From the NCBI RefSeq assembly GCF_028280385.1, contig NZ_JANQLX010000015.1, positions 1 through 64,000 of the forward strand: a stretch of DNA of 64,000 nt. Reading direction: 5' to 3'. Origin of the DNA: Allomuricauda sp. GTDB lineage: Bacteria > Bacteroidota > Bacteroidia > Flavobacteriales > Flavobacteriaceae. Made by a program: the position numbers and the translations under genes. Under the pieces are notes generated by a model. It had not been told where the DNA came from and ran no database searches. It worked only from the letters and a program-made list of their open reading frames with translations. This document shows positions 1,883 to 39,492 of the stretch, in pieces; position 1 is the stretch's first letter, and every line of letters starts with the position of its first letter.

Positions 1883-1898
1883 CTCTAAACAGTTGTCA

Positions 1899-1933
1899 GA
1901 TTTCGGATATCGGTTTTCGGTATTCAGTAATCG
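1899..1933. repeat. Degenerate 7-bp repeats, DUF2480-side border of the first fhb cassette
   Basis: Five consecutive 7-mers on the plus strand (GATTTCG, GATATCG, GTTTTCG, GTATTCA, GTAATCG) share the pattern GNNNTCR. They match the GATGTCG array at 2516-2557 on the other side of the fhb gene. The array ends 16 nt before the DUF2480 start codon. Confidence 0.65.
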
Positions 1934-2035
1934 GTGGTAAGTTATCAGAAACCAGTGCTCGGATTTCCTTTATCAGTAGTTCACGCCCTAGGCATAAAAT
2001 TCTGATTTCTGACCTCTGCCATCTGAAACGTAAAT

Positions 2036-2413
2036 TTAACTCTTGTTTTCCAAATACTTGATCAATCCAAAAATGGTCTTTGAAACTTTCTCACAAATGG
2101 CATATGTCTTTTCAAATTGTGTAGTGGAGATATAATCTGCGTCAACCGCCAAATACAATTGGGATTTTACCTCATAGCAAGAAGCTTTAGCCACATTTAG
2201 AAAATAAATGAACTCCTTTTTCGACTTTCTTCCAAAGCCTTCTGCAATATTTGAGGAAACCGAAATGGAGGCTCTTCTAATTTGATCTCGTAAAGCAAAA
2301 TCCCTTGAAAATGAATTGTCACTGGTTAATCTATATATCTCTTTGTTCAATTTTCTAGCACTTTGCCAGGAAACTAGTTGTTCAAACCCCTTATCCATAA
2401 CAGTACTTGCCAT
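2036..2413 (-). CDS. Four-helix-bundle protein (23S rRNA intervening-sequence family), copy 1
   Basis: This 125-residue all-helical protein belongs to the PF05635/TIGR02436 family, first known from ORFs inside 23S rRNA intervening sequences. The signature S-I-S-V-S-S-N-I-A-E-G-F-G lies at about 50-62, and a second conserved stretch (A-K-A-S-x-x-E-V-x-S-Q-L) at about 75-86. The molecular function is unknown; relatives assemble as pentameric bundles, and the Avd accessory protein of diversity-generating retroelements has the same fold. It lies between the DUF59 and DUF2480 genes of the SUF operon, on the same strand, with 7-bp repeats on both sides. The start could be the ATG at 2413 or the one at 2398 (M-D-K-G-F-E), which matches relatives better. 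Confidence 0.85.
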   Translation of the reverse strand: MASTVMDKGFEQLVSWQSARKLNKEIYRLTSDNSFSRDFALRDQIRRASISVSSNIAEGFGRKSKKEFIYFLNVAKASCYEVKSQLYLAVDADYISTTQFEKTYAICEKVSKTIFGLIKYLENKS

Positions 2414-2472
2414 TTTAGGATATCCGAGGTTATGATATCAGTTGTTGTTTCTAATTTTGTGTTTCTTTTTTT

Positions 2473-2557
2473 GGAACTCGGAACTCGGAACTCGGAACTC
2501 GGAACTCGGAACTCTGATGTCGGATGTCGGATGTCGGATGTCGGATGTCGGATGTCG
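2473..2557. repeat. Two adjacent perfect 7-bp tandem arrays, 6 x GGAACTC and 6 x GATGTCG
   Basis: Six perfect copies of GGAACTC (2473-2514) are followed, after one T, by six perfect copies of GATGTCG (2516-2557). They fill the gap between the DUF59 stop codon and the fhb gene. Perfect short repeats of this kind are prone to slippage, so the copy number probably varies between strains. The unit length of 7 would not preserve a reading frame, but the array is intergenic. Confidence 0.95.
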
Positions 2558-2563
2558 GAAAGT

Positions 2564-2893
2564 TTACAATAACCCCAACTCCAATTTCGCTTCCTCGCTC
2601 ATCAAGTCCTGGGTCCAGGGAGGATCAAAAGTGATTTCTACTTCCACATCTTTTAAAATATCCAAGGATTTTACCTTTTCCTCTACCTCAACCGGCAAGG
2701 TTTCTGCAACCGGGCAATTAGGAGTAGTCAGGGTCATTAGAATCTTCACATCATAATCCTCATTGACAAACACGTCGTAGATTAATCCCAATTCGTAAAT
2801 ATCCACTGGGATTTCAGGATCATAAATGGTCTTCAGCACCCCTACGATTTTCTCACCAAGCTCTTGGGTATCTATTGTGGTTTCTTCGCTCAT
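2564..2893 (-). CDS. DUF59/MIP18-family Fe-S assembly protein (SufT-like)
   Basis: This 109-residue protein is of the MIP18/DUF59 family. It has the hallmark D-P-E-I-P-V-D-I-Y-E-L-G-L-I-Y (about 25-39) and the conserved Cys in T-T-P-N-C-P (about 60). Family members act in maturation or trafficking of Fe-S clusters (SufT, CIA2-like). It lies 6 nt after sufE in the SUF operon, which fits this role. It is cytoplasmic, single-domain and of normal length. Confidence 0.9.
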   Translation of the reverse strand: MSEETTIDTQELGEKIVGVLKTIYDPEIPVDIYELGLIYDVFVNEDYDVKILMTLTTPNCPVAETLPVEVEEKVKSLDILKDVEVEITFDPPWTQDLMSEEAKLELGLL

Positions 2894-2899
2894 TCTTCT

Positions 2900-3322
2900 T
2901 TAATTCAATTGGGTTTGATAGGCCACGGCATACAACTTCAACTGCTTGATCATACTTACCAAACCATTGGCCCTTGTGGGCGATAAATGTTCTTTTAAGC
3001 CTATCTCATCTATAAACTCAGTGTCTGCATCTATGATATCCTGCGGCTTTTGATTGCTAAAAGCCCGGATCAAAATGGCAATAATGCCCTTGGTGATTAT
3101 GGCATCGCTATCTGCCGTGAACACCAATTTGTCCTCATCCAATTCGGCATGTACCCATACCTTGCTTTGGCAACCTTTTATGATGTTGTCCTCAACTTTA
3201 TATTGATCTTCGATCAAGGGAAGGGATTTGCCCAGTTCAATCATGTACTCATATCGCTGCATCCAATCATCGAACATGGAAAACTCATCCACAATTTCTT
3301 CCTGTATCTCTGTTATGGTCAT
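2900..3322 (-). CDS. sufE: SufE family cysteine desulfuration protein
   Basis: SufE accepts persulfide sulfur from SufS and passes it to the SufBCD scaffold. The 140-residue protein has the normal length. The acceptor Cys is in the family motif K-G-C-Q-S-K-V-W (about residue 51). It lies 72 nt downstream of sufS and just upstream of the DUF59 gene. The start ATG at 3322 precedes M-T-I-T-E-I-Q, which matches the family N-terminus. Confidence 0.93.
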   Translation of the reverse strand: MTITEIQEEIVDEFSMFDDWMQRYEYMIELGKSLPLIEDQYKVEDNIIKGCQSKVWVHAELDEDKLVFTADSDAIITKGIIAILIRAFSNQKPQDIIDADTEFIDEIGLKEHLSPTRANGLVSMIKQLKLYAVAYQTQLN

Positions 3323-3394
3323 TTAAAAATTTTGTTCAAAAATACGACTCAGGCCATTGTCCATCAAACCTTTAAGATAAAGATAACGTTGGTG

Positions 3395-4621
3395 CTACAA
3401 GAGCATGGATTTGGCCTTTTTTACCCCTTCCACCAAAATATCCACTTCCTCCTTGGTGTTATAGAAACTAAAACTTGCCCTAACCGTACCGGGAATTTTA
3501 TAGAAATCCATGATGGGTTGGGCACAATGATGACCTGTTCTTACGGCTATTCCCAATTTGTCCAAGATCGTTCCAATGTCATAGGGATGAATGCCATCTA
3601 TATTGAATGAAATCACCGAAGTCTTGTTTTTGGCCGTCCCATAAATACGAAGTCCTTCAATACCCAACAATTGTTCCGTGGCATACTGGAGCAAGTCTGA
3701 TTCATACTGGGCAATGTTGTCCATTCCAATCCCATTCAAATAATCCAGCGCCGCACCAAAAGCAATTCCACCGCAAATATTCGGGGTTCCTGCCTCAAAT
3801 TTATGGGGCAAATCAGCATAGGTGGTCTTTTCAAATGTCACCTCCGCAATCATCTCGCCTCCACCTTGATAGGGCGGTAGCTTGTTCAGCCATTCCTCTT
3901 TTCCGTAAAGAATCCCCACTCCGGTTGGACCGCACATTTTATGGGCAGACACTGTATAGAAGTCCACATCCAAAGCTTGCATATCCGCATTTATGTGAGG
4001 TGCGGCCTGGGCACCATCTATCAATACGGCAGCTCCCACTTTATGGGCGGCATCAATCAATTCTTCAATGGGGTTGACCGTTCCCAACGCATTGGATACA
4101 TGATTGCAGAACACCAGCTTGGTCCTATCAGACAACAAATTGTGAAATTCCTCAATGATCAGTTCTCCATTTTCGTTCATGGGAATGACCTTCAAAACAC
4201 CTCCTGTTCTCTCGCATAGCATCTGCCAGGGTACAATGTTGGAATGGTGCTCCATGGCAGAGACCAGTATCTCATCTCCCTCGCTTATAAAAGAAGAAAA
4301 GCCTTGAGCCACTAAATTGATGCCATGGGTTGTGCCCGAGGTAAAAATAACCTCGTGGGACCTGGCAATATTAAAATGGGCCTGTATCTTTTTCCGTGCC
4401 TCTTCATAGGCATCGGTTGCTTCTTGCGACAATGTATGTACTCCCCGGTGGATATTGGCATTGTAGCCATGGTAATACTCTACAATTGCATCTATGACCT
4501 GCTGCGGGGTCTGGGAGGTGGCAGCATTGTCCAGATACACCAACGGTCTACCATTGACCTCTCTTTGGAGGATGGGAAAATCCTTTCGGATTCTCTGAAT
4601 GTCCAATCCTATTTCCAACAT
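3395..4621 (-). CDS. sufS: Cysteine desulfurase SufS
   Basis: This 408-residue PLP enzyme converts L-cysteine to alanine and supplies persulfide sulfur for Fe-S clusters. The PLP lysine is in S-A-H-K-M-C-G-P (about 229), and the catalytic Cys is in R-T-G-H-H-C-A-Q-P (about 366), as in group II (SufS-type) enzymes. It starts 3 nt after the sufD stop codon, so the two are probably translationally coupled. An alternative ATG in the first residues cannot be excluded. Confidence 0.96.
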   Translation of the reverse strand: MLEIGLDIQRIRKDFPILQREVNGRPLVYLDNAATSQTPQQVIDAIVEYYHGYNANIHRGVHTLSQEATDAYEEARKKIQAHFNIARSHEVIFTSGTTHGINLVAQGFSSFISEGDEILVSAMEHHSNIVPWQMLCERTGGVLKVIPMNENGELIIEEFHNLLSDRTKLVFCNHVSNALGTVNPIEELIDAAHKVGAAVLIDGAQAAPHINADMQALDVDFYTVSAHKMCGPTGVGILYGKEEWLNKLPPYQGGGEMIAEVTFEKTTYADLPHKFEAGTPNICGGIAFGAALDYLNGIGMDNIAQYESDLLQYATEQLLGIEGLRIYGTAKNKTSVISFNIDGIHPYDIGTILDKLGIAVRTGHHCAQPIMDFYKIPGTVRASFSFYNTKEEVDILVEGVKKAKSMLL

Positions 4622-4624
4622 AAC

Positions 4625-5941
4625 TTACAGGTCAAATCCAACACGAACGCCAAGGGTATTGGCTATGATCTTGTTGATGCGTGTTTTAAGTTCGGGAATC
4701 CGAACACTTTCCAAAACATTGTTGGCAAAAGCATACATCAACAGGGCCGTGGCCTCTTTTTTGGGGATTCCGCGGGACTGCAGATAGAAGAGTGCATCCT
4801 CATCCAATTGTCCAATGGTACAGCCGTGGGAGCATTTTACATCATCAGCAAAAATCTCCAATTGGGGTTTGGTATTGATCGTGGCCTTGTCACTCAACAA
4901 TATATTGTTGTTCTGTTGGAAAGCATTGGTCTTTTGAGCAATTTGGTCCACAATAATCTTCCCGTTGAACACTCCCGTGGATTTCTCACCAAAAATTCCC
5001 TTATAATCTTGGTGGCTCTCACAATTTGGCTGCGCATGGTGTACCAAGGTATGGTGGTCCACATGTTGCTTTTCGCCCAAGATGGTCACCCCTTTTAAGG
5101 TAGAATCTATTCGCTCCCCGTTTTGGTAAAAATTAAGATTGTTCCGGGTCAGCTTACCTCCAAACGAAAAGGTATGCACCCGAACCACACTCTTATCCTT
5201 TTGGGCAATATAGGTGTTATCAATCAGTGATGCGGTCTTTGCATCATTCTGCATTTTGTAATAGTCCACGTGGGCGTCTTTACCTGCAAAAATTTCAGTG
5301 ACCGAGTTGGTAAATACCTCGTTGGTGGTCAAGCTTTGATGACGTTCAATAACCTGCACCTCGGCATTTTCCTCCACAATGATCAAGTTTCTGGGCTGTA
5401 GCATCAAGGCCGCCTCGTTACCGGTGGCAAAATGAATGATCTGAACCGGTTTTCTCGGTGCTTTGTTCTTGGGGATATAGATATAGGCTCCTTCCCTACT
5501 AAATGCGGTGTTCAAGGTTGTAAGCGACTCATCTTTGGAGGCCACTTTATTGAAATACACATCTATAATCTGTTTGTACTGTGGCTTGGTCAAAGCAGCG
5601 CTCAACAGACACACATCAACACCGTCATGGGTTGTCTCTGATAAATAAGAGCTATAAACCCCATCAATAAACACAATTTTATAGGTGTCTATCTCATGGA
5701 GGAAATACTTTTTGATCTCTTTGTAGTCCAGTGCGGCCTCTTGCTTGGGAAAAATGCTGAAATCAACCTTTTGGAGATTGTTCAAAGAAGTATATTTCCA
5801 AGCTTCTTCCTTTTTGGACGGAAAGCCCTTGGTCTCAAAATTTTTTATGGCCTCTGAACGAACCTCATGGACAGGATGATCCAAATCCACATTGTTCTCG
5901 AAGGCTATAAATGAAGAAAGTAATTTATCTTTTAAATCCAT
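4625..5941 (-). CDS. sufD: Fe-S cluster assembly protein SufD
   Basis: This is a subunit of the SufBC2D scaffold. The frame could start at 5959, but that ATG and the next residues lie inside the 80-bp repeat at 5954-6033. The ATG at 5941 is preceded by GAGAAAG and gives M-D-L-K-D-K-L-L, a usual SufD N-terminus of 438 residues. The C-terminal half has the SufB/D beta-helix with C-S-H-G-C-T-I-G-Q-L-D (about 375-385), a family signature. It lies between sufC and sufS in the operon. Confidence 0.95.
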   Translation of the reverse strand: MDLKDKLLSSFIAFENNVDLDHPVHEVRSEAIKNFETKGFPSKKEEAWKYTSLNNLQKVDFSIFPKQEAALDYKEIKKYFLHEIDTYKIVFIDGVYSSYLSETTHDGVDVCLLSAALTKPQYKQIIDVYFNKVASKDESLTTLNTAFSREGAYIYIPKNKAPRKPVQIIHFATGNEAALMLQPRNLIIVEENAEVQVIERHQSLTTNEVFTNSVTEIFAGKDAHVDYYKMQNDAKTASLIDNTYIAQKDKSVVRVHTFSFGGKLTRNNLNFYQNGERIDSTLKGVTILGEKQHVDHHTLVHHAQPNCESHQDYKGIFGEKSTGVFNGKIIVDQIAQKTNAFQQNNNILLSDKATINTKPQLEIFADDVKCSHGCTIGQLDEDALFYLQSRGIPKKEATALLMYAFANNVLESVRIPELKTRINKIIANTLGVRVGFDL

Positions 5942-5953
5942 TTTCTTTCTCGT

Positions 5954-6033
5954 TGTCATTCCCGTGAAAACGGGGATCTTAAAATTATCGGTTTATCGCA
6001 CATCCATGGATTCCTGCTGAAGTAGGAACGACA
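5954..6033. repeat. 80-bp two-hairpin REP/MITE-like element between sufC and sufD
   Basis: The ends TGTCATTCC (5954-5962) and GGAACGACA (6025-6033) are inverted with one mismatch. Inside are two smaller hairpins: ATTCCCGT/ACGGGGAT with loop GAAA (5958-5977) and TTCCTGC/GTAGGAA (6011-6028). This layout resembles the widespread intergenic REP-type elements. It is not coding and provides a false upstream ATG for sufD. In the transcript it would fold just ahead of sufD. Confidence 0.75.
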
Positions 6034-6039
6034 TAGGAC

Positions 6040-6792
6040 TTATACAACCGTTTCTTGCTTTATCCAGTCGTATCCTTTTTCTTCCAGTTCCAGGGCCAAC
6101 TCTTTCGAGCCCGATTTAACAATTTTTCCATCATGGAGCACATGAACAAAGTCTGGAACAATGTATTCCAATAATCTTTGGTAGTGGGTGATCACAATGA
6201 TGGCATTGTCTTTCCCGCGCAATTTGTTGACACCATTCGCCACTATTCGAAGTGCATCGATATCCAGTCCTGAATCTGTTTCATCCAGAATGGCCAGTTT
6301 GGGCTCCATCATCGCCATTTGGAATATTTCGTTCCTTTTTTTCTCCCCCCCTGAAAAACCTTCATTCAGGGAACGGGACAAAAACTTGCGGTCAATTTCC
6401 AACAGCTCTGACTTCTCACGAATCAATTTCAGCATCTGATTGGCGGGCATATCCTCCAATCCCCTTGCCTTTCTGGATTCGTTGATGGCCGTTTTCATAA
6501 AATTGGTGACCGTAACTCCGGGGATTTCCACAGGGTATTGGAACGAAAGGAAGATTCCCTTGTGTGCTCTTTCTTCAGGGGCCAGTTCCTCCAAGTCCTC
6601 CCCTTCGAGCGAAACACTTCCTTTTTTAATCTCAAATTCCTCTTTCCCGGCGATTACGGAAGCCAAAGTACTTTTTCCCGAACCATTAGGCCCCATGATC
6701 GCATGAACTTCGCCTGGTTTTACTTCAAGATTGATTCCTTTTAAAATCTTCTTATCCTCTACGCTGGCGTGTAAATTTTTTATTTCTAGCAT
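6040..6792 (-). CDS. sufC: SUF system ATPase SufC
   Basis: This ABC-type ATPase of the SufBC2D complex is about 250 residues with the ATG at 6792 (a TTG at 6801 is less likely). It shows Walker A G-P-N-G-S-G-K-S-T (about 36-44), the signature L-N-E-G-F-S-G-G-E-K-K-R (about 145-156) and Walker B L-A-I-L-D-E-T-D-S-G-L-D. It is soluble and has no membrane segment. It is separated from sufB by a four-helix-bundle gene whose left border repeat ends 14 nt before this start codon. Confidence 0.96.
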   Translation of the reverse strand: MLEIKNLHASVEDKKILKGINLEVKPGEVHAIMGPNGSGKSTLASVIAGKEEFEIKKGSVSLEGEDLEELAPEERAHKGIFLSFQYPVEIPGVTVTNFMKTAINESRKARGLEDMPANQMLKLIREKSELLEIDRKFLSRSLNEGFSGGEKKRNEIFQMAMMEPKLAILDETDSGLDIDALRIVANGVNKLRGKDNAIIVITHYQRLLEYIVPDFVHVLHDGKIVKSGSKELALELEEKGYDWIKQETVV

Positions 6793-6806
6793 TATTTCCA
6801 AGTCTA

Positions 6807-6830
6807 AAAGTCCAAAGTTGAAAAGTTGAT
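6807..6830. repeat. Left arm of the inverted repeat around the second fhb cassette
   Basis: The arm runs AAAGTCC, AAAGTTG, AAAAGTTGAT on the plus strand, with near 7-bp period. It matches the reverse complement of 7220-7244 at about 20 of 25 positions, including AAAGTCC and GTTGAT exactly. It starts 14 nt upstream of the sufC start and ends 6 nt from the fhb stop. Confidence 0.75.
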
Positions 6831-6836
6831 AAGCAT

Positions 6837-7208
6837 TTATTTGTTTTTGGTTTCCAAATACTTGATGAATCCTGATATCAACTTTGAAATTTCCGTTATT
6901 TCAAATTTTAGTTCCTCAAAAATCTCTTCCTTCAAATAGCGTAAGTCATAGGCAAGGTATAATTGAGATCTCACCTCTCCTGCTGATGCCTTTGCTATGA
7001 ATAAAAATTGTTTAAACTCTTTATCTGTATTTCTTTCAAACCCTTCAGCAATATTTGATGTTATCGATATTGCTGCTTTACGCATCTGTTTTTTTAGTTC
7101 AAAATCTACCTTAAAACCACCCTTTTCAGTTTCGGCGTACAACTTTTTGGTAAATGTTCTTGCTCTGGCCCATGCTTTTATTTCCTCAAAACATTCAATT
7201 TTCCCCAT
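6837..7208 (-). CDS. Four-helix-bundle protein (23S rRNA intervening-sequence family), copy 2
   Basis: This 123-residue protein starts M-G-K-I-E-C-F-E-E, a usual start for the family. It has A-I-S-I-T-S-N-I-A-E-G-F-E (about 48-60) and A-K-A-S-A-G-E-V-R-S-Q-L (about 74-85). Function is unknown. It lies between sufB and sufC, two genes for partner subunits of one complex, and on the same strand. An imperfect inverted repeat (6807-6830 and 7220-7244) encloses it. It is clearly related to copy 1 but diverged, so it is not a recent duplicate. Confidence 0.9.
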   Translation of the reverse strand: MGKIECFEEIKAWARARTFTKKLYAETEKGGFKVDFELKKQMRKAAISITSNIAEGFERNTDKEFKQFLFIAKASAGEVRSQLYLAYDLRYLKEEIFEELKFEITEISKLISGFIKYLETKNK

Positions 7209-7219
7209 CCCCTAAAACC

Positions 7220-7244
7220 ATCAACACTTTGAACATCGGACTTT
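7220..7244. repeat. Right arm of the inverted repeat around the second fhb cassette
   Basis: Read on the minus strand it is AAAGTCC, GATGTTC, AAAGTGTTGAT. It lies 16 nt after the sufB stop codon and 11 nt before the fhb start codon. In the minus-strand transcript it can pair with the arm at 6807-6830. Confidence 0.75.
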
Positions 7245-7260
7245 CGCCTTTTTACTTCAT

Positions 7261-8706: not shown

Positions 8707-8749
8707 AATTAACAATTAGTCAATGACCAATGGACGATCAACGATAGTA

Positions 8750-9079: not shown

Positions 9080-9108
9080 TCTTACTTGGATTTATTCTAA
9101 ATAGCTTA

Positions 9109-9116
9109 CAAATATA
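9109..9116 (-). promoter_or_regulatory. -7 element of the SUF operon promoter
   Basis: On the minus strand TATATTTG matches the Bacteroidota -7 consensus TAnnTTTG, about 30 nt upstream of the first SUF start codon. A clear -33 TTTG is not seen at the usual distance. Confidence 0.45.
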
Positions 9117-9197
9117 GGTCATTAGTGGGGTTTTACCTCATTTCCTAACATTATAATAACGAATGATCCAATAGGGGTTATCTATGGTGCTGGAAGA

Positions 9198-10538: not shown

Positions 10539-10547
10539 AGCGTTGAA

Positions 10548-11871: not shown

Positions 11872-11875
11872 CCAA

Positions 11876-28785: not shown

Positions 28786-30789
28786 ATGGGCATATTGGAT
28801 TCTAAAATTCCATCCGGTCCATTGGCCGATAAATGGACCAAACATAAAAATGACATCAATCTGGTGAACCCTGCCAACAAGCGCAATATAGACGTGATTG
28901 TGGTAGGAACAGGTTTGGCAGGAGGTGCCGCTGCAGCCACCCTGGCCGAATTGGGTTATAATGTAAAAACGTTTTGTTATCAAGATTCTCCTCGAAGAGC
29001 ACACTCCATTGCTGCCCAAGGGGGTATCAATGCAGCTAAAAATTATCAGGGGGATGGAGACAGCCCCTACCGTTTATTTTACGACACCATCAAAGGTGGA
29101 GACTATCGCTCCCGTGAAGCCAACGTTTATCGATTGGCTGAAGAATCGGCCAATATCATTGATCAATGTGTGGCGCAAGGAGTCCCTTTTGCCCGTGAAT
29201 ATGGTGGTCTTTTGGACAACCGTTCTTTTGGAGGGGTTTTGGTGTCCCGGACATTTTATGCCAAAGGACAGACCGGCCAGCAGTTGCTCTTGGGAGCATA
29301 TGCCGCTATGAACCGACAGATCAACAGAGGGAAAATACAATCCTACAACCGTCATGAGATGATGGATCTCGTGCTTGTGGATGGTAAAGCCCGAGGTATC
29401 ATTGCCAGGGATTTGGTAAGTGGTGAAATCCAAAGACATGCTGCACATGCGGTGGTGCTCGCCACTGGAGGTTATGGAAATGTATTTTTCCTATCTACCA
29501 ATGCCATGGGCAGTAACGTAATGGCCGCTTGGCGTGCCCATAAAAAGGGTGCCTTTTTTGCCAATCCTTGCTATACGCAAATCCACCCTACCTGTATTCC
29601 GGTTTCCGGGGAGCATCAGTCCAAGTTGACGTTGATGTCCGAGTCCCTTAGAAACGATGGCCGTATTTGGGTGCCAAAACGCAAAGAGGATGCCGTGGCC
29701 ATCAGGGAAGGGAAATTGAAACCTACCCAGCTTTCGGAGGAAGAACGCGATTACTACTTGGAACGCAGGTATCCGGCATTCGGAAATTTGGTTCCACGTG
29801 ATGTGGCTTCCAGAGCTGCAAAAGAAAGATGTGATGCTGGGTTTGGCGTAAACAAAACTGGCGAGGCCGTTTACCTTGATTTTGCGGCAGCAATTGAAAG
29901 GTACGGTAAGGAAAAGGCCATGACCACCGGAATCAAAAATCCGGATAAGGAAACCATCACAAAACTGGGTGAGGAAATTATCGAGGCCAAGTACGGTAAC
30001 CTCTTCCAGATGTATGAAAAAATCGTGGATGAAAATCCATATAAAACCCCAATGATGATCTACCCGGCAGTGCATTATACCATGGGGGGACTTTGGGTGG
30101 ATTATAACCTGCAGACCACCATACCCGGATGCTATTGCGCCGGAGAGGCCAACTTTAGTGATCATGGTGCCAACCGCTTAGGGGCTTCGGCCTTGATGCA
30201 AGGTTTGGCCGATGGTTATTTTGTCCTGCCCTACACCATCGGGGATTATTTGTCCAATGACATTAGAACAGGTCCCATTTCAACGGATTCCCCAGAATTT
30301 GAAGCCGTGGAAAACGAGGTGAAAGGACGTTTGGATAAATTGATGTCGGGTGCTGGTATCCATTCTGTGGATTATTACCACAAAAAACTGGGCAAGATCA
30401 TGTGGAACAAATGTGGAATGTCAAGAAATGCCAAAGAGCTAGAAGAAGCCATTGGGGAAATTGCCGCTTTGCGAAAGGACTTCTGGGAAAACGTAAAGAT
30501 TCCTGGCACTGCGGAGTCAAAAAACCAAGAGCTTGAAAAAGCTGGGAGAGTGGCCGATTTCCTTGAATTGGGAGAATTGTTTGCCAAAGATGCGCTGCAT
30601 AGAAATGAATCCTGCGGCGGACATTTCCGCGAAGAATACCAAACCCCTGAAGGAGAGGCCTTAAGGGATGATGAGAACTTTAAATATGTGGCCGCATGGG
30701 AATTTAAGGGAGAACCCAAAGATGCCGTGCTTCACAAAGAGGATTTGGTTTATGAGAATATTGAATTAAAGACACGTTCATATAAATAG
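28786..30789 (+). CDS. sdhA: Succinate dehydrogenase flavoprotein subunit
   Basis: This 667-residue catalytic subunit oxidises succinate to fumarate (TCA cycle, complex II). It shows the FAD dinucleotide fold [10 protein letters not shown] (about 43-52), the flavinylated His in [11 protein letters not shown] (about 70-80), and active-site elements H-P-T-C-I-P and [10 protein letters not shown]. Its length is usual for type B enzymes. Between sdhA and sdhB lies an inserted four-helix-bundle gene. Confidence 0.97.
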
Positions 30790-30804
30790 TTGTTGGGTTG
30801 TTGA

Positions 30805-30838
30805 GTTGATTGAGTTATTAAGTTGATTGAGTTATTAA
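30805..30838. repeat. 17-bp perfect tandem repeat upstream of the third fhb gene
   Basis: GTTGATTGAGTTATTAA occurs twice in a row, and the flanks (from about 30788 and to 30846) continue in degenerate GTTG/TTGAG units. The array fills the gap between the sdhA stop codon and the fhb start. A short related sequence in inverted orientation lies at 31237-31257. Confidence 0.85.
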
Positions 30839-30858
30839 GTTGCTGAGCAGGAGTTGAT

Positions 30859-31236
30859 GTGGGAAATTTAAGATCATTTGAAGAATTGGAATGTTGGAGA
30901 GCGGCGAGAATTCTTCGAAATTACGTGAAAAAAGAAATTGTTCCACTGATTCCCAAATCTGAACACTATGGCCTGATCAGTCAAATTAAAAGGTCTTCCA
31001 GGTCCATTGGCAATAATATTGCGGAGGGTTTTGGAAGATTCCACTATCAAGAAAACATTCAATTCTGTAGGATAGCCCGAGGTTCTCTTTGCGAGACCTT
31101 AGATCATGGAATTGTTGCTTTTGATGAACAATATATTTCAGAAGAAATGCTCAACGAACTAAGGAAATTACACAACAAAGTTTTGAAAATACTCAATGGG
31201 TACATCAAATATTTGAAGGAATCAAATTCGAAATAA
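30859..31236 (+). CDS. Four-helix-bundle protein (23S rRNA intervening-sequence family), copy 3
   Basis: This 125-residue protein starts with GTG after an AGGAG site 5 nt upstream; the ATG 2 nt earlier is in another frame and stops at once. It begins M-G-N-L-R-S-F-E-E-L and has S-R-S-I-G-N-N-I-A-E-G-F-G (about 50-62). It belongs to PF05635/TIGR02436, but is diverged from the other three copies. It splits sdhA from sdhB on the same strand. Unlike sdh genes, it has no known role in complex II, and its upstream side carries a 17-bp tandem repeat. Confidence 0.9.
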   Translation: MGNLRSFEELECWRAARILRNYVKKEIVPLIPKSEHYGLISQIKRSSRSIGNNIAEGFGRFHYQENIQFCRIARGSLCETLDHGIVAFDEQYISEEMLNELRKLHNKVLKILNGYIKYLKESNSK

Positions 31237-31269
31237 CCCATTAACATATAACTTAAGAATAGCGAAGCT

Positions 31270-32016
31270 ATGAAACTGACACTTAAAATTTGGAGACAAA
31301 AGGATGCCGAAACCAAAGGCCAAATCGTAGATTATACGCTGGATGGCGTTGAGGGCGATATGTCTTTTTTGGAAATGTTGGATATCCTCAATGAGGAACT
31401 GGTCTCAAAAGGAGAGGAACCTGTAGAGTTTGATCACGATTGTCGTGAAGGAATTTGCGGAACCTGCTCTTTGCAAATCAATGGAGAGCCCCATGGTCCG
31501 GACCGATTGATAACTACATGTCAGTTGCACATGCGCAAATTTAACGATGGAGATACCATCGTTATTGAGCCCTTTAGGGCCAAGGCTTTTCCAGTAGTGA
31601 AAGATTTAATCGTAGATCGCAGCGCATTTGACCGTATCCAACAGGCGGGTGGTTATATTTCAGTGAACACTTCCGGAAATACCGTGGATGCCAATGCCAT
31701 TCCCATTCGTAAGGAGGATGCAGACAAAGCCATGGATGCTGCTACCTGTATTGGTTGTGGCGCCTGTGTAGCGGCCTGTAAAAATGCCAGTGCCATGCTA
31801 TTTACCTCAGCCAAGGTATCCCAATTTGCATTGTTACCGCAAGGACAGGTAGAAGCGGCAGAACGTGTGGAAAATATGGTGCGCCAAATGGACCTTGAAG
31901 GGTTTGGCAACTGTACCAATACAGGAGCATGTGAAATAGAGTGCCCAAAGGGAATTTCTTTGGAGAACATTGCCAGAATGAACCGGGAGTACCTATCTGC
32001 CTCTATTAAGGGATAG
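31270..32016 (+). CDS. sdhB: Succinate dehydrogenase iron-sulfur subunit
   Basis: This 248-residue subunit transfers electrons from FAD to quinone. All three cluster motifs are present: C-R-E-G-I-C-G-T-C with the later T-T-C for [2Fe-2S] (about 57-80), [11 protein letters not shown] (about 160-170) and [11 protein letters not shown] (about 216-226) for the [4Fe-4S] and [3Fe-4S] clusters. It lies 33 nt after the fhb gene and ends at a strong terminator. Confidence 0.97.
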
Positions 32017-32038
32017 TATTTTAATACATAAAAAACAA

Positions 32039-32070: not shown

Positions 32071-32071
32071 G

Positions 32072-33022: not shown

Positions 33023-33035
33023 TTGAAAGACCTTA

Positions 33036-33137
33036 TTAAGAGGTAGATTCATTCACAATCCCATTTAACGACTTCAATAAATCTTTCGGCGCCTCTTCAC
33101 TTCCACGCTTTTCATTTTTACCAAGAGGGTATTTCAT
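33036..33137 (-). CDS. Possible 33-residue ORF
   Basis: The frame M-K-Y-P-L-G-K-N-E-K-R-G runs to T-S-stop in the gap between the YceI gene and the WD40 gene. It is charged, has no hydrophobic segment and resembles nothing I know. Codon use looks normal. It may be chance. Confidence 0.25.
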   Translation of the reverse strand: MKYPLGKNEKRGSEEAPKDLLKSLNGIVNESTS

Positions 33138-33181
33138 AGGGTTATTGTAGCGTCATGAGGAAAAAGACCATTGTCGAAAAT

Positions 33182-33766: not shown

Positions 33767-33780
33767 TGTTTTGTTTTGGA

Positions 33781-33788
33781 CAAATCTA
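33781..33788 (-). promoter_or_regulatory. -7 element of the YceI gene
   Basis: On the minus strand TAGATTTG matches TAnnTTTG, 15 nt upstream of the YceI start. The expected -33 TTTG is not seen. Confidence 0.4.
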
Positions 33789-33874
33789 GGTTTGAGGGCC
33801 TTGGGAGAGGTGAATAAAATGTAAATGAAGTGCAAAAAATTGCAATTTTTTAAATTGACAGTAATCCAGCATAC

Positions 33875-34756: not shown

Positions 34757-34765
34757 CCTTAATAT

Positions 34766-35245
34766 ATGTCCCAAAACTACCCCAAAGAACGCATCAAGGT
34801 CCCAAGATTTAATGAGGAATCCGGGTTTTATACCACTCCGGAACGCTCCAAGATCATGGGAAAGATAAGGGGCAAAAACACCAAGCCTGAACTTGCTTTT
34901 AGAAAGGCCCTTTGGGCTGCTGGATATAGATATCGAATTGATTATAAAAAGTTGATCGGCAAACCTGATATTGTCCTGAACAAATACAAAACCGCCATTT
35001 TTATTGATGGGGAGTTTTGGCACGGACACAATTGGGAAGAACGCAAACAACGAATCAAAACCAACCGGGAATTTTGGATCCCAAAAATTGAAAGGAACAT
35101 ACAACGCGATGCCGAAGTGAATAACGGGCTAAAAATGCTGGGCTATACGGTTTTTAGGTTTTGGGAAAGTGAGGTAAAGAAAAATTTGGAAGAATGTCTT
35201 CAAACCGTAATTGATTCCCTGGAAAAAAAACATGTAGATGATTAG
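34766..35245 (+). CDS. Very-short-patch-repair-type endonuclease, Vsr-like
   Basis: This 159-residue protein has the Vsr fold: M-G-K-I-R-G-K-N-T-K-P-E-L-A-F-R (about 31-46), Y-R-Y-R-I (about 53-57), P-D-I-V-L (catalytic Asp, about 68) and I-D-G-E-F-W-H-G-H (about 79-87). In E. coli Vsr the last segment is G-C-F-W-H-H-H, with Cys ligands for a structural zinc; here the Cys are replaced. No cytosine methyltransferase lies nearby. It overlaps the next gene by 8 nt, so the two are translationally linked. Confidence 0.85.
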   Translation: MSQNYPKERIKVPRFNEESGFYTTPERSKIMGKIRGKNTKPELAFRKALWAAGYRYRIDYKKLIGKPDIVLNKYKTAIFIDGEFWHGHNWEERKQRIKTNREFWIPKIERNIQRDAEVNNGLKMLGYTVFRFWESEVKKNLEECLQTVIDSLEKKHVDD

Positions 35246-36383
35246 ACCAACTTCCAAGCTCCCCAAGGTAGGCACCACCATTTTCACGGTCATCAACCAA
35301 TTGGCACAACAATACAATGCGGTAAACCTATCCCAGGGATTTCCCAATTTCAGTCCGGATCCAGAATTACTTCGCCTCACCCAAAAAGCGTTGGCGGGTA
35401 ATTACAATCAATATGCCCCCATGCAGGGGTCCTTGAAATTGCGGGAAACCATCGCTGAAAAAACAGAATCCCTATATGGTAGGGTGTATCATCCCGAATC
35501 GGAAATCACCATAACGGCGGGTGCTACCCAAGCTATTTTTTCAGCTTTTGGGGCATTTGTGCATCCTGGAGATGAGGTTATTGTATTTAGGCCTGCCTAT
35601 GATTGCTACGTTCCGGCCATTGAGCTTTTTGGTGGGAAAGTGGTGCCACTAGATCTGGTGGGTTCCCATTTTAAGGTGGACTGGGAAGCTCTTAAAGCCG
35701 CCATCAATCCGAAAACAAGGATGGTGGTCATAAATTCCCCACACAATCCAACCGGCACGATTTGGACGGAATCGGACATGCTCCGTCTTCAGGAAATTCT
35801 TCGTGAGACCAACATTATCTTGCTCAGTGATGAGGTATATGAACATATTGTATTTGACGGCCAACCGCATGAGAGCGCTTCCAAGTTTCCAGATTTGGCC
35901 TCCCGAAGCCTTATTTGTTCCTCTTTTGGAAAGACATTTCATATCACGGGATGGAAAATTGGATATTGTGTGGCACCAAAAACATTGATGAAAGAATTTC
36001 ACAAGGTGCACCAATACACCGTTTTTTCGGTGTACCATCCGGCCCAAATTGCCCTTGATGCATACTTGCAACATCCAGAGCATTATACAACACTTGGTAG
36101 CTTCTATCAGAAAAAACGCGATTATTTCCTAGATGCCATTACTGGTTCAAAATTTTTGGCGGTACCATCTTCCGGCACCTACTTTCAGCTCATGGATTAC
36201 AGTGGAATCTCGCATGCATCGGATACTGATTTTGCGGAGTTCTTAATCAAGGAACACCAATTGGCCAGTATTCCTATTTCTGTATTCTGTGGCCCTGGGT
36301 ACGATCAAAAAATCCTTAGGTTTTGTTTTGGGAAAACGGAAGAAGTATTGGAAAAAGCCGCGGAAATCCTGAATGGGATTTAG
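35238..36383 (+). CDS. PLP-dependent aminotransferase, methionine aminotransferase type (YbdL-like)
   Basis: This 381-residue class I/II aminotransferase has the PLP lysine in S-S-F-G-K-T-F-H-I-T-G-W-K (about 234) and the substrate Arg in L-R-F-C-F-G (about 358). N-S-P-H-N-P-T-G-T-I-W (about 165-175) is the usual cofactor segment. S-Q-G-F-P-N-F at the N-terminus and S-S-F-G-K-T-F are typical of YbdL-like methionine aminotransferases and kynurenine aminotransferases; the first is more likely. It overlaps the Vsr-like gene by 8 nt and ends 3 nt before a convergent regulator gene. Confidence 0.9.
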   Translation: MIRPTSKLPKVGTTIFTVINQLAQQYNAVNLSQGFPNFSPDPELLRLTQKALAGNYNQYAPMQGSLKLRETIAEKTESLYGRVYHPESEITITAGATQAIFSAFGAFVHPGDEVIVFRPAYDCYVPAIELFGGKVVPLDLVGSHFKVDWEALKAAINPKTRMVVINSPHNPTGTIWTESDMLRLQEILRETNIILLSDEVYEHIVFDGQPHESASKFPDLASRSLICSSFGKTFHITGWKIGYCVAPKTLMKEFHKVHQYTVFSVYHPAQIALDAYLQHPEHYTTLGSFYQKKRDYFLDAITGSKFLAVPSSGTYFQLMDYSGISHASDTDFAEFLIKEHQLASIPISVFCGPGYDQKILRFCFGKTEEVLEKAAEILNGI

Positions 36384-36386
36384 TGG

Positions 36387-37094
36387 TTACAGCTGCTTTT
36401 TGGCAATCTGGAAGATCTGTAGGATATCCTTTAAAGGAAGTTCAAAATCTTGGTATTCGGGAGATTTGTTCAGATTACTGCAGTGAATGGAATGGGTTTC
36501 ACTGTTGTAATCCATAATCTGTTTGCAAATAATGCGGTCGCTGCAGACTAAAATATAAGGTTTGCCCAAATAGCTTGAATTGGGGGTGGTAATGTCTTTG
36601 GTATCCACTAACACTCCCAGAACAATGGCCTTGTTGGGGACTGATGCTATGCTACCATCGTTCATGGAATCGCCGGTAATCTCAAAGGCCATATGGCGAC
36701 CATCATCCAATGCGTCCAACACAAAACCGGTCTGATAGGCATTTTTGGCCTCAATTTGCGCCTTTACCATGCCTATGTATTCTTTTTGTTGTTCCATATG
36801 GACCAGGTGCGACATGATCAAATATTTTCCATGGTCCAAGGGATAAAATGCACTTCCGTGTTTGGCAAATGGTTTTTTATGGGCATAGGAAGCTTGTGGG
36901 TCATTAAATTCCCTGAAGTACATCTCATCAATGCTCATATCAAAGAAATTGGCAATTTTTGTAAGATTTTTCATAGGAATATTCGCCCCTTTCCGCTCAT
37001 AAAGCTGTATTGTACGTAAACTTACTCCTATTTCCTTTGCAAATTCTGACTGACTTAATCCTTTTTTTCTTCTTAATTGTTTTATTATGAACAT
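36387..37094 (-). CDS. XRE-type regulator with C-terminal S24/LexA-like domain
   Basis: From the ATG at 37094 (M-F-I-I-K-Q-L-R-R-K-K-G) the protein has 235 residues. The N-terminal helix-turn-helix (about 3-60) includes L-S-Q-S-E-F-A-K-E-I-G-V-S-L-R-T-I-Q-L-Y-E. The C-terminal part has I-T-G-D-S-M-N-D-G-S (Ser about 142) and I-I-C-K-Q-I-M (Lys about 190), positions that fit the Ser-Lys pair of the S24 family. I see no Ala-Gly cleavage site, so autocleavage is unproven. Such proteins act as repressors, often of phages, but there are no phage genes nearby. A palindrome lies just upstream. Confidence 0.85.
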   Translation of the reverse strand: MFIIKQLRRKKGLSQSEFAKEIGVSLRTIQLYERKGANIPMKNLTKIANFFDMSIDEMYFREFNDPQASYAHKKPFAKHGSAFYPLDHGKYLIMSHLVHMEQQKEYIGMVKAQIEAKNAYQTGFVLDALDDGRHMAFEITGDSMNDGSIASVPNKAIVLGVLVDTKDITTPNSSYLGKPYILVCSDRIICKQIMDYNSETHSIHCSNLNKSPEYQDFELPLKDILQIFQIAKKQL

Positions 37095-37119
37095 AAATTT
37101 ACTATCTTGTGTAATATTA

Positions 37120-37143
37120 TTGCGCTTAACGCTAAATGCGCAA
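37120..37143. promoter_or_regulatory. Inverted repeat TTGCGC-N12-GCGCAA between divergent regulators
   Basis: TTGCGC (37120-37125) and GCGCAA (37138-37143) are a perfect inverted pair; in the 12-nt centre TTAACG and CTAAAT are half-site-like. It lies 26 nt upstream of the XRE/S24 gene and 90 nt from the divergent small gene. It is a candidate autoregulatory operator. Confidence 0.45.
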
Positions 37144-37232
37144 CCTTCAACCTCACCTCTGTAATTCACTTACGATCAAATATAGAAAAAGGGAATTACT
37201 TCAATAAAACTTGTTTAATAAACTCTAAAACT

Positions 37233-37553
37233 ATGGGTAGTCTCAAGTCATCAGACCTACAGCTAGACAGCGACAAAATGTTTGACCAATCTGAATATGG
37301 CAAACCGATCAGCAAAGAACTTTCAACGATTTTGCGAAGAAACCTGGACAAAAACAATATGGCCGATATTGCTTCCAGCACCAACATGAGTTATTCCACC
37401 GTTAGGGACGTGGTGTACCGGACCAATAGCTTAACGCCTGCCAATGCAGAGGCTCTTTGTCTGTTGGTTCACGCGGCCTATCAAAATTCCATTGGCTATA
37501 AATTACGCTCTGAAGGGGATATGATGTTCTTGGATAGTTTGCTAAACCTTTAG
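37233..37553 (+). CDS. Small helix-turn-helix-like protein
   Basis: The frame opens at 37077 inside the regulator gene, but the realistic ATG is at 37233 (M-G-S-L-K-S-S-D), giving 106 residues. The middle has a helix-turn-helix-like stretch M-A-D-I-A-S-S-T-N-M-S-Y-S-T-V-R-D-V-V (about 42-60). It is acidic at the N-terminus and has no membrane segment. It is divergent from the XRE/S24 gene and could share its operator. Its 3' end overlaps the convergent GNAT gene by 12 nt. Function is unknown. Confidence 0.7.
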   Translation: MGSLKSSDLQLDSDKMFDQSEYGKPISKELSTILRRNLDKNNMADIASSTNMSYSTVRDVVYRTNSLTPANAEALCLLVHAAYQNSIGYKLRSEGDMMFLDSLLNL

Positions 37554-38072
37554 TCTAAGCAGCCAATCCGTTTGTTTGTCCCCACCAATAAAATAGGGAT
37601 GGGTGCCAAATTTTGTAAACCCATATCTCAGGTAAAACCTTATGGCCTTTGGATTGTGCTCCCAAACACCTAGCCAAACATAATCCAAAGCGTCATTTTT
37701 GGCTATGGCAATAACCTGCTCCAAAATCCAGGCACCTATTCCCAACCCCTGCTTGTTGGGCAATACATAAATGCGCTCCAGCTCCAGGGAAACACGGTCC
37801 TTAATATCGGATTGTGCCTTGCCCGTGTTCAATTTAAAATACCCTACCAGGTCCATGTCCTCATATACGAAATAGAAGCGGGTGCCTTTGGTGTCCAATT
37901 CTTGGCGAAGTTGCTCCGGGCTGAACGCGGATCCGATATAATCCACAAAGTCGTTAGGGTCGTTATCCTTTTCAAATGCAGCAATAAAGGTTTCCTTGGA
38001 AATATTGACCAACATGTCCAGGTCGGCCAGTGTACAAAGACGGTAATAGCGTTCGTTTGAAACTGGTTTCAT
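37542..38072 (-). CDS. GNAT family N-acetyltransferase
   Basis: This 176-residue protein has the GNAT core: V-S-L-E-L-E-R-I-Y-V-L-P (beta 4), the acetyl-CoA loop N-K-Q-G-L-G-I-G-A-W-I-L-E (about 105-117) and V-W-L-G-V-W-E-H-N-P-K-A-I-R-F-Y (about 130-145). The substrate is unknown; small amines or protein N-termini are possible. It is convergent with the small HTH gene and lies alone on the minus strand downstream of the sco transcript terminator. Confidence 0.9.
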   Translation of the reverse strand: MKPVSNERYYRLCTLADLDMLVNISKETFIAAFEKDNDPNDFVDYIGSAFSPEQLRQELDTKGTRFYFVYEDMDLVGYFKLNTGKAQSDIKDRVSLELERIYVLPNKQGLGIGAWILEQVIAIAKNDALDYVWLGVWEHNPKAIRFYLRYGFTKFGTHPYFIGGDKQTDWLLRLKV

Positions 38073-38090
38073 TCCCTCAAGTTATGGAAT

Positions 38091-38120
38091 AAAAAAAGAG
38101 CCTAACAAATTGTTGGCCCT
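38091..38120 (-). terminator. Terminator of the sco transcript
   Basis: On the minus strand GGGCC-AACAA and TTGTT-A-GGCTC pair into a stem with a one-base bulge, followed by seven T (38097-38091). It lies after scoB and the 35-residue ORF and before the GNAT gene. Confidence 0.6.
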
Positions 38121-38146
38121 TATATTTTTTCATTCTTTATGAATGT

Positions 38147-38254
38147 TTAAAGCATAAATAGCTTTTTGATCAATTGCATAAATCCAGTGAAAAAATCGTT
38201 TCTGTAAACTTGAACATTGTCCTCTACCGAGGAGTGGGTAAATTTGGGTGCCAT
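38147..38254 (-). CDS. Possible 35-residue ORF at the end of the sco transcript
   Basis: The frame M-A-P-K-F-T-H-S-S-V-E-D-N-V to L-I-K-K-L-F-M-L-stop lies between scoB and its terminator. It is the only candidate gene in the 312-nt gap 38073-38384. It has an amphipathic C-terminal end (F-F-T-G-F-M-Q-L-I-K-K-L-F). There is no clear ribosome-binding site and no known family. Confidence 0.35.
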   Translation of the reverse strand: MAPKFTHSSVEDNVQVYRNDFFTGFMQLIKKLFML

Positions 38255-38384
38255 GGTGTTGATTTTAATGGAGTTAATTTGGGAAAAATATTCTAATAAA
38301 CCAAAATACCATCAAAGTTTTAAGAAATAAAAATAATTGTTGTGAAAATGGCCGGGATTGTGGTCAAAAAAGGCGTTGAAAAGG

Positions 38385-39038
38385 TCAGATGACCATCTCT
38401 GGAACCGCGTCAGGAACGGTCAAATTCCCTTCGGTTGCCTCCTTTATTTGTGCTACGGAAACCCCGGGCGCCCTTTCCAAGAGTTTAAACCCATTATCCG
38501 TTACTTCCAGAACAGCCAAATTGGTCACGATTTTTTTGACGCAGCCCACCCCGGTCAAGGGTAGTGTGCATTTTTTCAGCAGTTTGGACTTTCCTGCCTT
38601 GTTGGTGTGCATCATGGCCACAATAATATTCTCTGCAGAGGCCACCAGGTCCATAGCGCCTCCCATCCCCTTTACCATTTTACCGGGAATTTTCCAGTTG
38701 GCAATGTCCCCGTTTTCCGCCACTTCCATTGCACCCAAAATGGTAAGGTCCACATGCTGGCCCCTGATCATTCCAAAACTCAATGCCGAATCGAAGAAGG
38801 AAGCTCCTGGCAAAGTGGTAATGGTCTGTTTTCCCGCATTGATGATATCGGCATCTTCTTCTCCTTCAAAAGGGAAAGGCCCCATGCCCAAAACACCATT
38901 TTCACTTTGGAACTCCACGCTGATATCTTCGCGGACAAAATTGGCCACCAACGTGGGTATTCCAATACCAAGGTTTACGTAATATCCGTCCTTTACCTCT
39001 TTTGCAATGCGTTTTGCTATTCCGTTTTTATCCAACAT
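38385..39038 (-). CDS. scoB: 3-oxoacid CoA-transferase subunit B
   Basis: This 217-residue beta subunit transfers CoA between succinyl-CoA and acetoacetate or a related acid. The catalytic Glu is in Q-S-E-N-G-V-L-G-M-G-P (about 46), and the family motif G-G-A-M-D-L-V (about 126-132) is present. An fhb gene with 8-bp repeats separates it from scoA. It starts 9 nt after the end of these repeats, which therefore lie in the position of its ribosome-binding region. Confidence 0.94.
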   Translation of the reverse strand: MLDKNGIAKRIAKEVKDGYYVNLGIGIPTLVANFVREDISVEFQSENGVLGMGPFPFEGEEDADIINAGKQTITTLPGASFFDSALSFGMIRGQHVDLTILGAMEVAENGDIANWKIPGKMVKGMGGAMDLVASAENIIVAMMHTNKAGKSKLLKKCTLPLTGVGCVKKIVTNLAVLEVTDNGFKLLERAPGVSVAQIKEATEGNLTVPDAVPEMVI

Positions 39039-39047
39039 GTTTAATAT

Positions 39048-39079
39048 GCTAATTTTTCAACTTGGCAATGTGCCAATTC
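39048..39079. repeat. 8-bp period repeats at the scoB side of the fourth fhb cassette
   Basis: Four octads on the plus strand (GCTAATTT, TTCAACTT, GGCAATGT, GCCAATTC) lie between the fhb stop codon and scoB. They contain GCTAAT and CAATGTG, which occur in inverted orientation in the array at 39443-39490. Confidence 0.6.
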
Positions 39080-39080
39080 T

Positions 39081-39431
39081 CTACTTTTTTGAATTTCTTT
39101 TACTTGTACTTACAATTTTGCCTAAAATCAATCCCAATTCCTTGGTCATTGGACCCAGTTTGGACTTTGATGGATACGTAGGGGCCTTTTCACAAAGTTC
39201 CAACCAGTATTTGGTTTCTTCCAACTCCTTGGCTGCAATTTTTAGTTTATGGATGAAGTCAGCCCTGCTTTCTGCATGTTGCGCTTCTCGAATATTTGCC
39301 CCAACACTTGTTCCCGACCTTAATAGTTGCTTGCCCACAACAAATTTCTTTTTTGCTTCAAGCACTTCGCAAAATGAAATTATCTCCAAAGCCAATTCCG
39401 TAGATTTTACCACAACGACGTTCTCCTTCAT
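39081..39431 (-). CDS. Four-helix-bundle protein (23S rRNA intervening-sequence family), copy 4
   Basis: The ATG at 39431 gives M-K-E-N-V-V-V-V-K-S, the usual start of this subgroup; a GTG 6 nt upstream is less likely. The 116 residues include R-S-G-T-S-V-G-A-N-I-R-E-A (about 38-50) and A-A-K-E-L-E-E-T-K-Y-W-L (about 67-78), which mark the TIGR02436-type family. It is the most divergent of the four copies. It separates scoA from scoB on the same strand, with 8-bp period repeats on both sides. Confidence 0.85.
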   Translation of the reverse strand: MKENVVVVKSTELALEIISFCEVLEAKKKFVVGKQLLRSGTSVGANIREAQHAESRADFIHKLKIAAKELEETKYWLELCEKAPTYPSKSKLGPMTKELGLILGKIVSTSKRNSKK

Positions 39432-39442
39432 TCCCACAAACT

Positions 39443-39490
39443 CATTAGGCCATTTTTACATTAGCTCATTTTCAAATTTCCACATTGGGG
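39443..39490. repeat. Six 8-bp units at the scoA side of the fourth fhb cassette
   Basis: Six octads in a row read CATTAGGC, CATTTTTA, CATTAGCT, CATTTTCA, AATTTCCA, CATTGGGG on the plus strand. All but one start CATT. They fill the gap between the scoA stop codon and the fhb start. Confidence 0.75.
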
Positions 39491-39492
39491 AA

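Follow-up and report, generated by a model that had tools for sequence, protein, structure and literature searches.

PF05635 genes inside bacterial operons are bounded by complementary arms and probably form site-faithful mobile elements akin to the 23S rRNA intervening sequence

Four genes of the PF05635 family, designated fhb1 to fhb4, occur in the window, by which we mean the whole 64,000-nucleotide stretch of Allomuricauda sp. contig NZ_JANQLX010000015.1 that was analysed. Each lies between two genes of an operon, and such genes are, as a class, bounded by a left and a right arm that are complementary to each other. Gene and arms together probably constitute an operon intervening sequence, a selfish and site-faithful mobile element that would be a variant of the intervening sequence (IVS) of rRNA genes. 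All four window proteins match PF05635 (E-values 9e-36, 9e-34, 5e-30 and 2e-23; 83-123 bits against a Pfam cut-off of 33.8) and TIGR02436 (93-121 bits, cut-off 24). The genome has ten PF05635 genes in total, four of them in the window, where they lie between protein genes and not inside rRNA. The first-pass annotation had described the four as operon-borne genes on the host strand, and this holds: each is sense-oriented with respect to both neighbours, at DUF59/DUF2480, sufB/sufC, sdhA/sdhB and scoA/scoB. The parts of the four elements are as follows, with the number of shuffles that did as well as the arms given at each left arm.

2418..2562, minus strand: left (5') arm region of element 1, beginning 1 nt past the DUF59 stop codon; 43 of 500 shuffles as good
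2473-2560: period-7 array in the element 1 left arm (Tandem Repeats Finder)
2036..2413, minus strand: fhb1, PF05635, between DUF59 and DUF2480 in the suf operon
1900..2024, minus strand: right (3') arm region of element 1, built of degenerate units of 7-8 nt; the start of DUF2480 lies at 1882
7217..7251, minus strand: left arm of element 2, after sufB; 19 of 500 shuffles as good
6837..7208, minus strand: fhb2, PF05635, between sufB and sufC
6799..6833, minus strand: right arm of element 2, period 8, with an array at 6814-6833 (Tandem Repeats Finder)
30799..30830, plus strand: left arm of element 3, after sdhA; 119 of 500 shuffles as good
30788-30847: array of periods 8 and 17 that holds the element 3 left arm (Tandem Repeats Finder)
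30859..31236, plus strand: fhb3, PF05635, between sdhA and sdhB
31237..31269, plus strand: right arm of element 3, extending up to the start of sdhB at 31270
39459..39487, minus strand: left arm of element 4, after scoA; 66 of 500 shuffles as good
39081..39437, minus strand: fhb4, PF05635, between scoA and scoB
39042..39078, minus strand: right arm of element 4, which stops 3 nt short of scoB, whose start is at 39038

The right arm of element 2 ends 6 nt before an in-frame sufC ATG at 6792; the listed open reading frame (ORF) opens at TTG 6801. Short-period border repeats, earlier reported at all four sites, were recovered by Tandem Repeats Finder at three, and at the fourth, scoA/scoB, the program returned no tandem array with a score of 30 or more.

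When copies from 40 loci (designated by L numbers) are set side by side, the left border at many sites resembles the reverse complement of the right border, so that the fhb gene would form the loop of a hairpin. The repeat unit varies by site, as the four window copies had indicated, and its type within one site tends to persist across species. Removal of duplicates and of hits shorter than 60 residues reduced 170 profile hits to 150 distinct copies, and the 123 with both flanks of at least 14 nt were scored against dinucleotide shuffles of the right border. The mean z is -1.99, with p<0.05 in 61 of the 123. Copies at one site are not independent; by site type, the mean z is negative in 22 of 23 (sign test p 6e-6). 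The same test on 150 co-directional triplets of non-fhb genes, drawn at random out of 332 from loci L011-L200, gives a mean z of -0.14 and p<0.05 in 7. A separate phylum-wide set, in which 27 of 30 copies could be scored, gives a mean z of -3.34 and p<0.05 in 20 of the 27. Both the genus and the phylum copies come from the best E-value-ranked part of their lists, so decayed copies are under-sampled. The arm complementarity of the fhb class is beyond chance.

Arm positions were obtained for the 81 of 103, 19 of 23 and 4 of 6 copies that aligned in three sets. In the genus (81 copies), the arms have a median length of 24 nt and begin 7 nt past the upstream stop codon; the right arm resumes a median of 5 nt past the fhb stop and ends a median of 9 nt before the next start codon (interquartile range 5-15), in agreement with the 9-16 nt given for the right-hand repeats in the window. 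The phylum medians (19 copies) are 29 nt for length, 4 nt after the stop, 7 nt before the start and 6 nt after the fhb stop. Left arms are G-rich and C-poor (0.213 and 0.116) and right arms have C at 0.249 and G at 0.086, while control spacers are balanced; with this fixed strand polarity, each arm pairs with its partner and not with itself. Arms paired with their own partners average -30.7 kcal/mol, compared with -24.7 for random partners, and the own right arm ranks best of 41 in 9 of 144 cases (3.5 expected) and among the top three in 41 of 144 (10.5 expected). Whole elements at sdhA/sdhB and scoA/scoB measure about 420-510 bp.

At least one PF05635 copy is present in 69 of 71 genomes of the genus, for 433 matches in total, and the family has a match in 193 of 247 genomes drawn across Bacteroidota. 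Both neighbours were called for 144 of the 150 distinct copies, which make up the genus and suf set, and fhb is co-directional with both in 137 of these; of the remaining genes in those loci, 310 of 475 are so placed (Fisher p 8e-15). In the phylum set of 30 loci the figure for fhb is 26 of 29. Placement between genes of one complex, as first proposed, is too narrow: several sites across the genus (alsT/thyA, panB/rluA, lepB/wbqC) do not join two genes of one complex; the rule is placement inside an operon, not inside a complex. Neighbour gene names beyond those checked with Pfam are our reading of their sequences, not database calls. Within the suf operon, fhb occupies differing junctions by species (DUF59/DUF2480, sufB/sufC, sufC/sufD, or before sufB).

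Searches of plasmid proteins found the family mainly in cyanobacteria. Sixteen annotated cyanobacterial copies were fetched, and 13 are co-directional with both listed neighbours, including one between Cas10 and Cmr3 and one between Cas6 and Cas4. Their arms beat all 100 shuffles in 9 of the 15 copies scored; the remaining copy has a right flank of 3 nt. In Azospirillum lipoferum 4B (L267) a PF05635 gene lies inside a plasmid-borne 23S rRNA gene (RF02541, 2520 bits), flanked by short-period complementary arms that can be read directly; the z of -6.7 for these arms includes some adjoining rRNA. A Gemmatimonadota plasmid copy has the same anatomy by eye. In the Gemmatirosa plasmid locus L299, at 1330-1520, the left border of an fhb element seems by eye to hold a complete fhb-less short-period hairpin beside it.

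Intervening sequences of 23S rRNA with an S23p/IVP ORF occur in Leptospira, Coxiella and others. In one rRNA IVS described in PMC4990558, tandem heptameric repeats adjoin the ORF, the ends are complementary, the insert replaces a tetraloop and RNase III excises it. Because arms of the same type close the Azospirillum 23S ORF, and because the published IVS has both repeats and complementary ends, the rRNA and operon elements have one anatomy in the cases seen. The likeness to the 23S rRNA IVS noticed in the window is therefore upheld in the protein family, the sense orientation, the complementary short-period ends and the place of the ORF in the loop. The two also share sporadic presence, horizontal transfer and the lack of a known function. 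They differ in that the operon element sits in a protein-coding operon at a stop-start junction, with many junctions per genome and several operon-specific fhb lineages; the rRNA IVS is excised by RNase III without ligation, a step that is hypothetical for the operon elements. As described in PMC4990558, 23S rRNA intervening sequences have been known for decades, and their function and means of movement are not known. IVP ORFs have been reported in both 16S and 23S inserts of bacteria of the candidate phyla radiation (PMC11270868), and 23S rRNA diversity is treated in PMC2672173. Heptamer repeats in Beggiatoaceae are the subject of PMC4679880, where no fhb or intervening-sequence term occurs.

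The first-pass annotation had raised mobility as an inference, and empty sites do exist in relatives. A search with sdhA/sdhB matched 69 of 70 genomes; among the best-scoring 30 loci, 16 junctions are empty (5-7 nt from stop to start), 7 hold fhb, 5 hold an fhb-less 64-nt hairpin and 2 hold remnants. Among the best 30 loci for scoA/scoB, 17 are empty (-1 to 3 nt), 5 hold fhb, 2 hold decayed fhb and 6 hold other inserts, namely another small ORF in 3 and a hairpin resembling repetitive extragenic palindromic (REP) sequences in 3. At both junctions the filled sites are scattered over the host-gene trees. Broken fhb copies occur at L013, L035, L237 and L258; in L013 and L035, both at DUF59/DUF2480, an in-frame stop lies inside fhb, the profile matches are shortened, and the arms are still present by eye. 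Two outcomes that would have spoken against the first-pass proposal did not occur: relatives do not always carry fhb, and their copies do have complementary ends.

Folding z-scores below -2 are frequent among spacers of 40-130 nt at sufC/sufD (22 of 48), DUF59/DUF2480 (14 of 36) and sdhA/sdhB (6 of 7), compared with sufS/sufE (6 of 58). REP-like hairpins account for some of these spacers and short-period fhb-less hairpins for others, the latter in a few cases with GAAA loops (L014, L017, L024, L224, L227). The fhb-less hairpins occupy the same junctions as fhb or neighbouring ones and may be deletion products. REP-like hairpins of two other sequence types were seen in the same junctions (L242, L249 and L259 at scoA/scoB; L019, L025, L029 and L055 in suf spacers), which suggests that these spacers are insertion hot spots or tolerant sites.

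Since fhb is under purifying selection, raw nucleotide identity is unsafe as proof of transfer, and synonymous sites were used. L214 and L230 carry sdhA/sdhB elements whose identity is 92-98% throughout when taken in 60-nt windows; it is 90% in the adjoining windows and 75-93% in the remainder of the flanks, and third codon positions are 64% (sdhA) and 62% (sdhB) identical. The sister hosts L229 and L230, by comparison, are 93% and 91% alike at third positions of sdhA and sdhB, and their elements are only 89% alike. Four recipients have the spacer of the donor-like clade and, within the opening 13 nt of sdhB, all 4 of its 4 diagnostic bases; by base 29 of that gene they match their empty sisters. 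What is shared therefore comprises the element and 13-28 nt of sdhB. Nine pairs from other sites were chosen for similarity and profiled across the element edges. Identity falls at or soon after the edges most clearly in L180/L185 (fadB/fadA) and L120/L135 (panB/rluA); the other pairs show a weaker fall, or similarity that runs into a flank. In 16 of 814 pairs, spread over 7 of 9 sites, the synonymous divergence of fhb is below 0.6 of the value for either flank; uncertain start calls may have put the downstream values out of frame for panB/rluA and for L130/L140. These comparisons point to horizontal, homing-like movement at sdhA/sdhB and at some other sites, and some elements have moved between species into the same site.

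A number of observations weigh against the mobile-element reading. The window arm pairs are weak one by one, only one of the four sites reaching p<0.05 by the shuffle counts listed above, and 3 of the 16 cyanobacterial plasmid copies (L301, L303, L308) are antisense to both listed neighbours and without well-paired arms. The median synonymous divergence of fhb is about equal to that of its flanks and near saturation, only 38 of 814 pairs have an fhb identity that is higher than the host identity by more than 0.05, and most pairs fit vertical descent. Some empty sites may be precise losses, since the flanks of L213 and L215 are of the type found at filled sites. Short shared tracts can also arise where homologous recombination acts together with selection on the beginning of the downstream gene. 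No transposition was observed directly, and the element encodes neither a recombinase nor a nuclease nor a reverse transcriptase.

The rival that survives best, though we consider it unlikely, is an mRNA intervening sequence proper, in which RNase III would cut the stem and thereby split the polycistronic mRNA or set gene ratios, the arms being kept for processing. The anatomy is like that of rRNA IVSs, which RNase III cuts (PMC4990558), the arms have median lengths of 24 nt in the genus and 29 nt in the phylum and lie close to the stop and the next start codon, and their G-rich left and C-rich right sides favour mutual over self pairing. RNase III processing of operon stems is, by analogy, plausible. 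Maintenance of the stems at the RNA level was examined through the ratio of G-U to A-C appositions, and the result, from a test that had no positive control, was negative: G-U is not in excess in any of three sets, with 59 against 82, 17 against 26 and 2 against 7 (expected 219/246, 58/65 and 20/26), and the pooled counts of 78 and 115 lean in the opposite direction (p 0.08). The stems look, on this evidence, made or maintained at the DNA level. Between-species covariation of the arms within a site reaches significance at two of 9 sites, fadB/fadA (p 5e-5) and, more weakly, fadA/acyl-CoA dehydrogenase (p 0.014); it does not at the other 7, because the repeat units are conserved within a site. 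The earlier suggestion that these inserts split mRNAs or set gene ratios has found no support so far.

Each fhb lineage might instead be a domesticated, operon-specific regulator that binds the mRNA of its own operon at the arms, and this we regard as doubtful. It would account for the faithfulness of fhb lineages, which keep to one operon, a pattern that the mobile-element reading also counts in its favour. In a protein tree of 138 of the 150 copies (those longer than 85 residues with no internal stop), the site labels need 27 changes, compared with a minimum of 23 and a shuffled mean of 103. Sister lineages tend to adjoin in one operon or cluster, as with metH1/metH2 and metH/metF, or fadB/fadA and fadA/acyl-CoA dehydrogenase, and further sister lineages at neighbouring junctions are found at phzF, hemB and hemF and at the suf junctions; the deep forks of the tree are unsure because columns are few and branches long. 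The ORF itself is under purifying selection, which counts for the mobile-element reading and for a regulator alike: dN/dS is 0.03-0.27 in 13 of 14 pairs chosen as similar, the fourteenth having no synonymous change, and site medians are 0.07-0.34. IVP genes in cas loci are, moreover, listed among associated functions in PMC3936711. A domesticated regulator is nonetheless hard to reconcile with loci of close relatives in which no intact copy is present (23 of 30 at sdhA/sdhB, 25 of 30 at scoA/scoB), with the four broken copies, with horizontal movement at the same site, or with a family carried by operons as unrelated as CRISPR, conjugation, suf, fad and sdh.

Retrohoming in trans, in the manner of a diversity-generating retroelement (DGR), with fhb acting like Avd alongside a host reverse transcriptase and the hairpin as target, is improbable. 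Avd is a distantly related four-helix bundle, although the Avd equivalog model NF033474 gives 21 bits on fhb2 alone of the four window proteins, against a cut-off of 80. A DGR target must contain a DNA hairpin, the stem of which is free in sequence and the loop of which, in phage DGRs, is GRNA (PMC3240598), recalling both the hairpin with free stem sequence of the operon element and the GAAA loops of some fhb-less hairpins. DGR stems are described as GC-rich, however, and fhb arms are not; the operon element has no reverse transcriptase, and no template or variable repeat was seen. No PF00078 match is present in 43 of 70 genus genomes, which average 6.2 fhb copies against 6.0 in those with a match (p 0.61), and five single-contig genomes with no PF00078 match have 2-8 copies. 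A host reverse transcriptase was accordingly rejected as a requirement and seems dispensable, with the reservations that PF00078 may miss unusual reverse transcriptases and that copy number speaks to persistence more than to movement.

A sequence-specific DNA transposon is also a poor fit. The copies have no terminal inverted repeat sequence in common, and since the arms at 40 loci share only complementarity, sequence-specific transposition is unlikely. REP sequences with their associated transposases (RAYT) and hairpins like miniature inverted-repeat transposable elements (MITEs) are similar in being small and intergenic, and the fhb-less hairpins resemble non-autonomous copies, but the arm sequence of fhb elements differs by site, and the class can therefore not be defined by a sequence-specific transposase. 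Chance insertion of ordinary small genes, with the repeats as slippage noise in intergenic DNA, would fit the short-period repeats in many of these spacers and the other small ORFs in the same junctions (L234, L244, L250), but this is very improbable given arms complementary well past shuffled and control spacers, with a fixed strand polarity, and the cyanobacterial arms besides.

We therefore favour a hairpin-recognising, homing-like selfish element, because a reverse transcriptase seems dispensable, sequence-specific transposition is unlikely, and the stems look to be a matter of DNA. Its layout is a short-period 5' arm, the fhb ORF and a complementary 3' arm, on the sense strand, lying between the stop codon of one gene and the start of the next. 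The four-helix-bundle protein, a solved relative of which is pentameric (PMC4990558), would recognise the hairpin by shape, not sequence, and promote copying of the element into the allelic junction, with the arms made or kept complementary at the DNA level. The hairpin would bring stop and start codons within about 16 nt of each other (medians 7 + 9), so that the host tolerates the insert, much as an rRNA IVS is tolerated in a hairpin loop. Homing group I and group II introns and free-standing homing endonucleases are alike in their site-faithful spread between species into an allelic site, with flanking sequence co-inherited. The operon element differs in encoding no ribozyme, nuclease or reverse transcriptase, and it needs no splicing because it sits between genes. 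A wider proposal, possible but offered tentatively, is that PF05635 as a whole marks homing hairpin elements that form a widespread class, rRNA being only one of their niches: recognition would be by shape, without a nuclease or reverse transcriptase of their own, each lineage would copy its element into the stop-start junctions of a single operon in different species, and the insert would be silent thanks to the hairpin instead of a ribozyme.

On this evidence, IVS relatives are numerous in ordinary operons of a single genus, and fhb elements look like an overlooked class of mobile genetic passenger that reaches far past the window. No description of this architecture in operons was found in the literature searched, most subscription journals lying outside the search. 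One source reports 18 IVP genes in cas loci, one of them between Cmr3 and Cmr2, and arms are not mentioned in that passage (PMC3936711); another lists fhb between the genes for guanylate kinase and nicotinic acid mononucleotide adenylyltransferase in one genome (PMC5524665). Operon intervening sequences offer an alternative reading for fhb genes reported as parts of host operons, such as cas operons. Because empty, filled and decayed alleles occur together in a group of which many strains are in culture, how the elements move, and whether the ORF drives that movement, are directly testable.

Further observations concern what else the junctions contain. At DUF59/DUF2480, L025, L039, L041, L045, L050 and L056 have a different small ORF (77 residues in L045, MTTRQIDRIIEMAWEDRTPFEAIEYQFGL...), and in L051 this small ORF lies directly upstream of an fhb element. 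The scoA/scoB junctions of L234, L244 and L250 hold an unrelated ORF (113 residues in L244) in which CxxC motifs and probable membrane segments can be made out by eye. In the fhb-filled loci L231, L237, L238, L240, L243 and L254, scoA ends in a few codons unlike the ones found in most empty relatives, as though insertion reshaped the C-terminus. Between sufB and sufC, L021 has a 291-residue ORF at 3343-4218 that reads, by eye and in this locus only, like a secreted protein of the metallo-beta-lactamase fold; sufB/sufC spacers similar in length, about 900 nt, occur in L016, L020, L024 and others.

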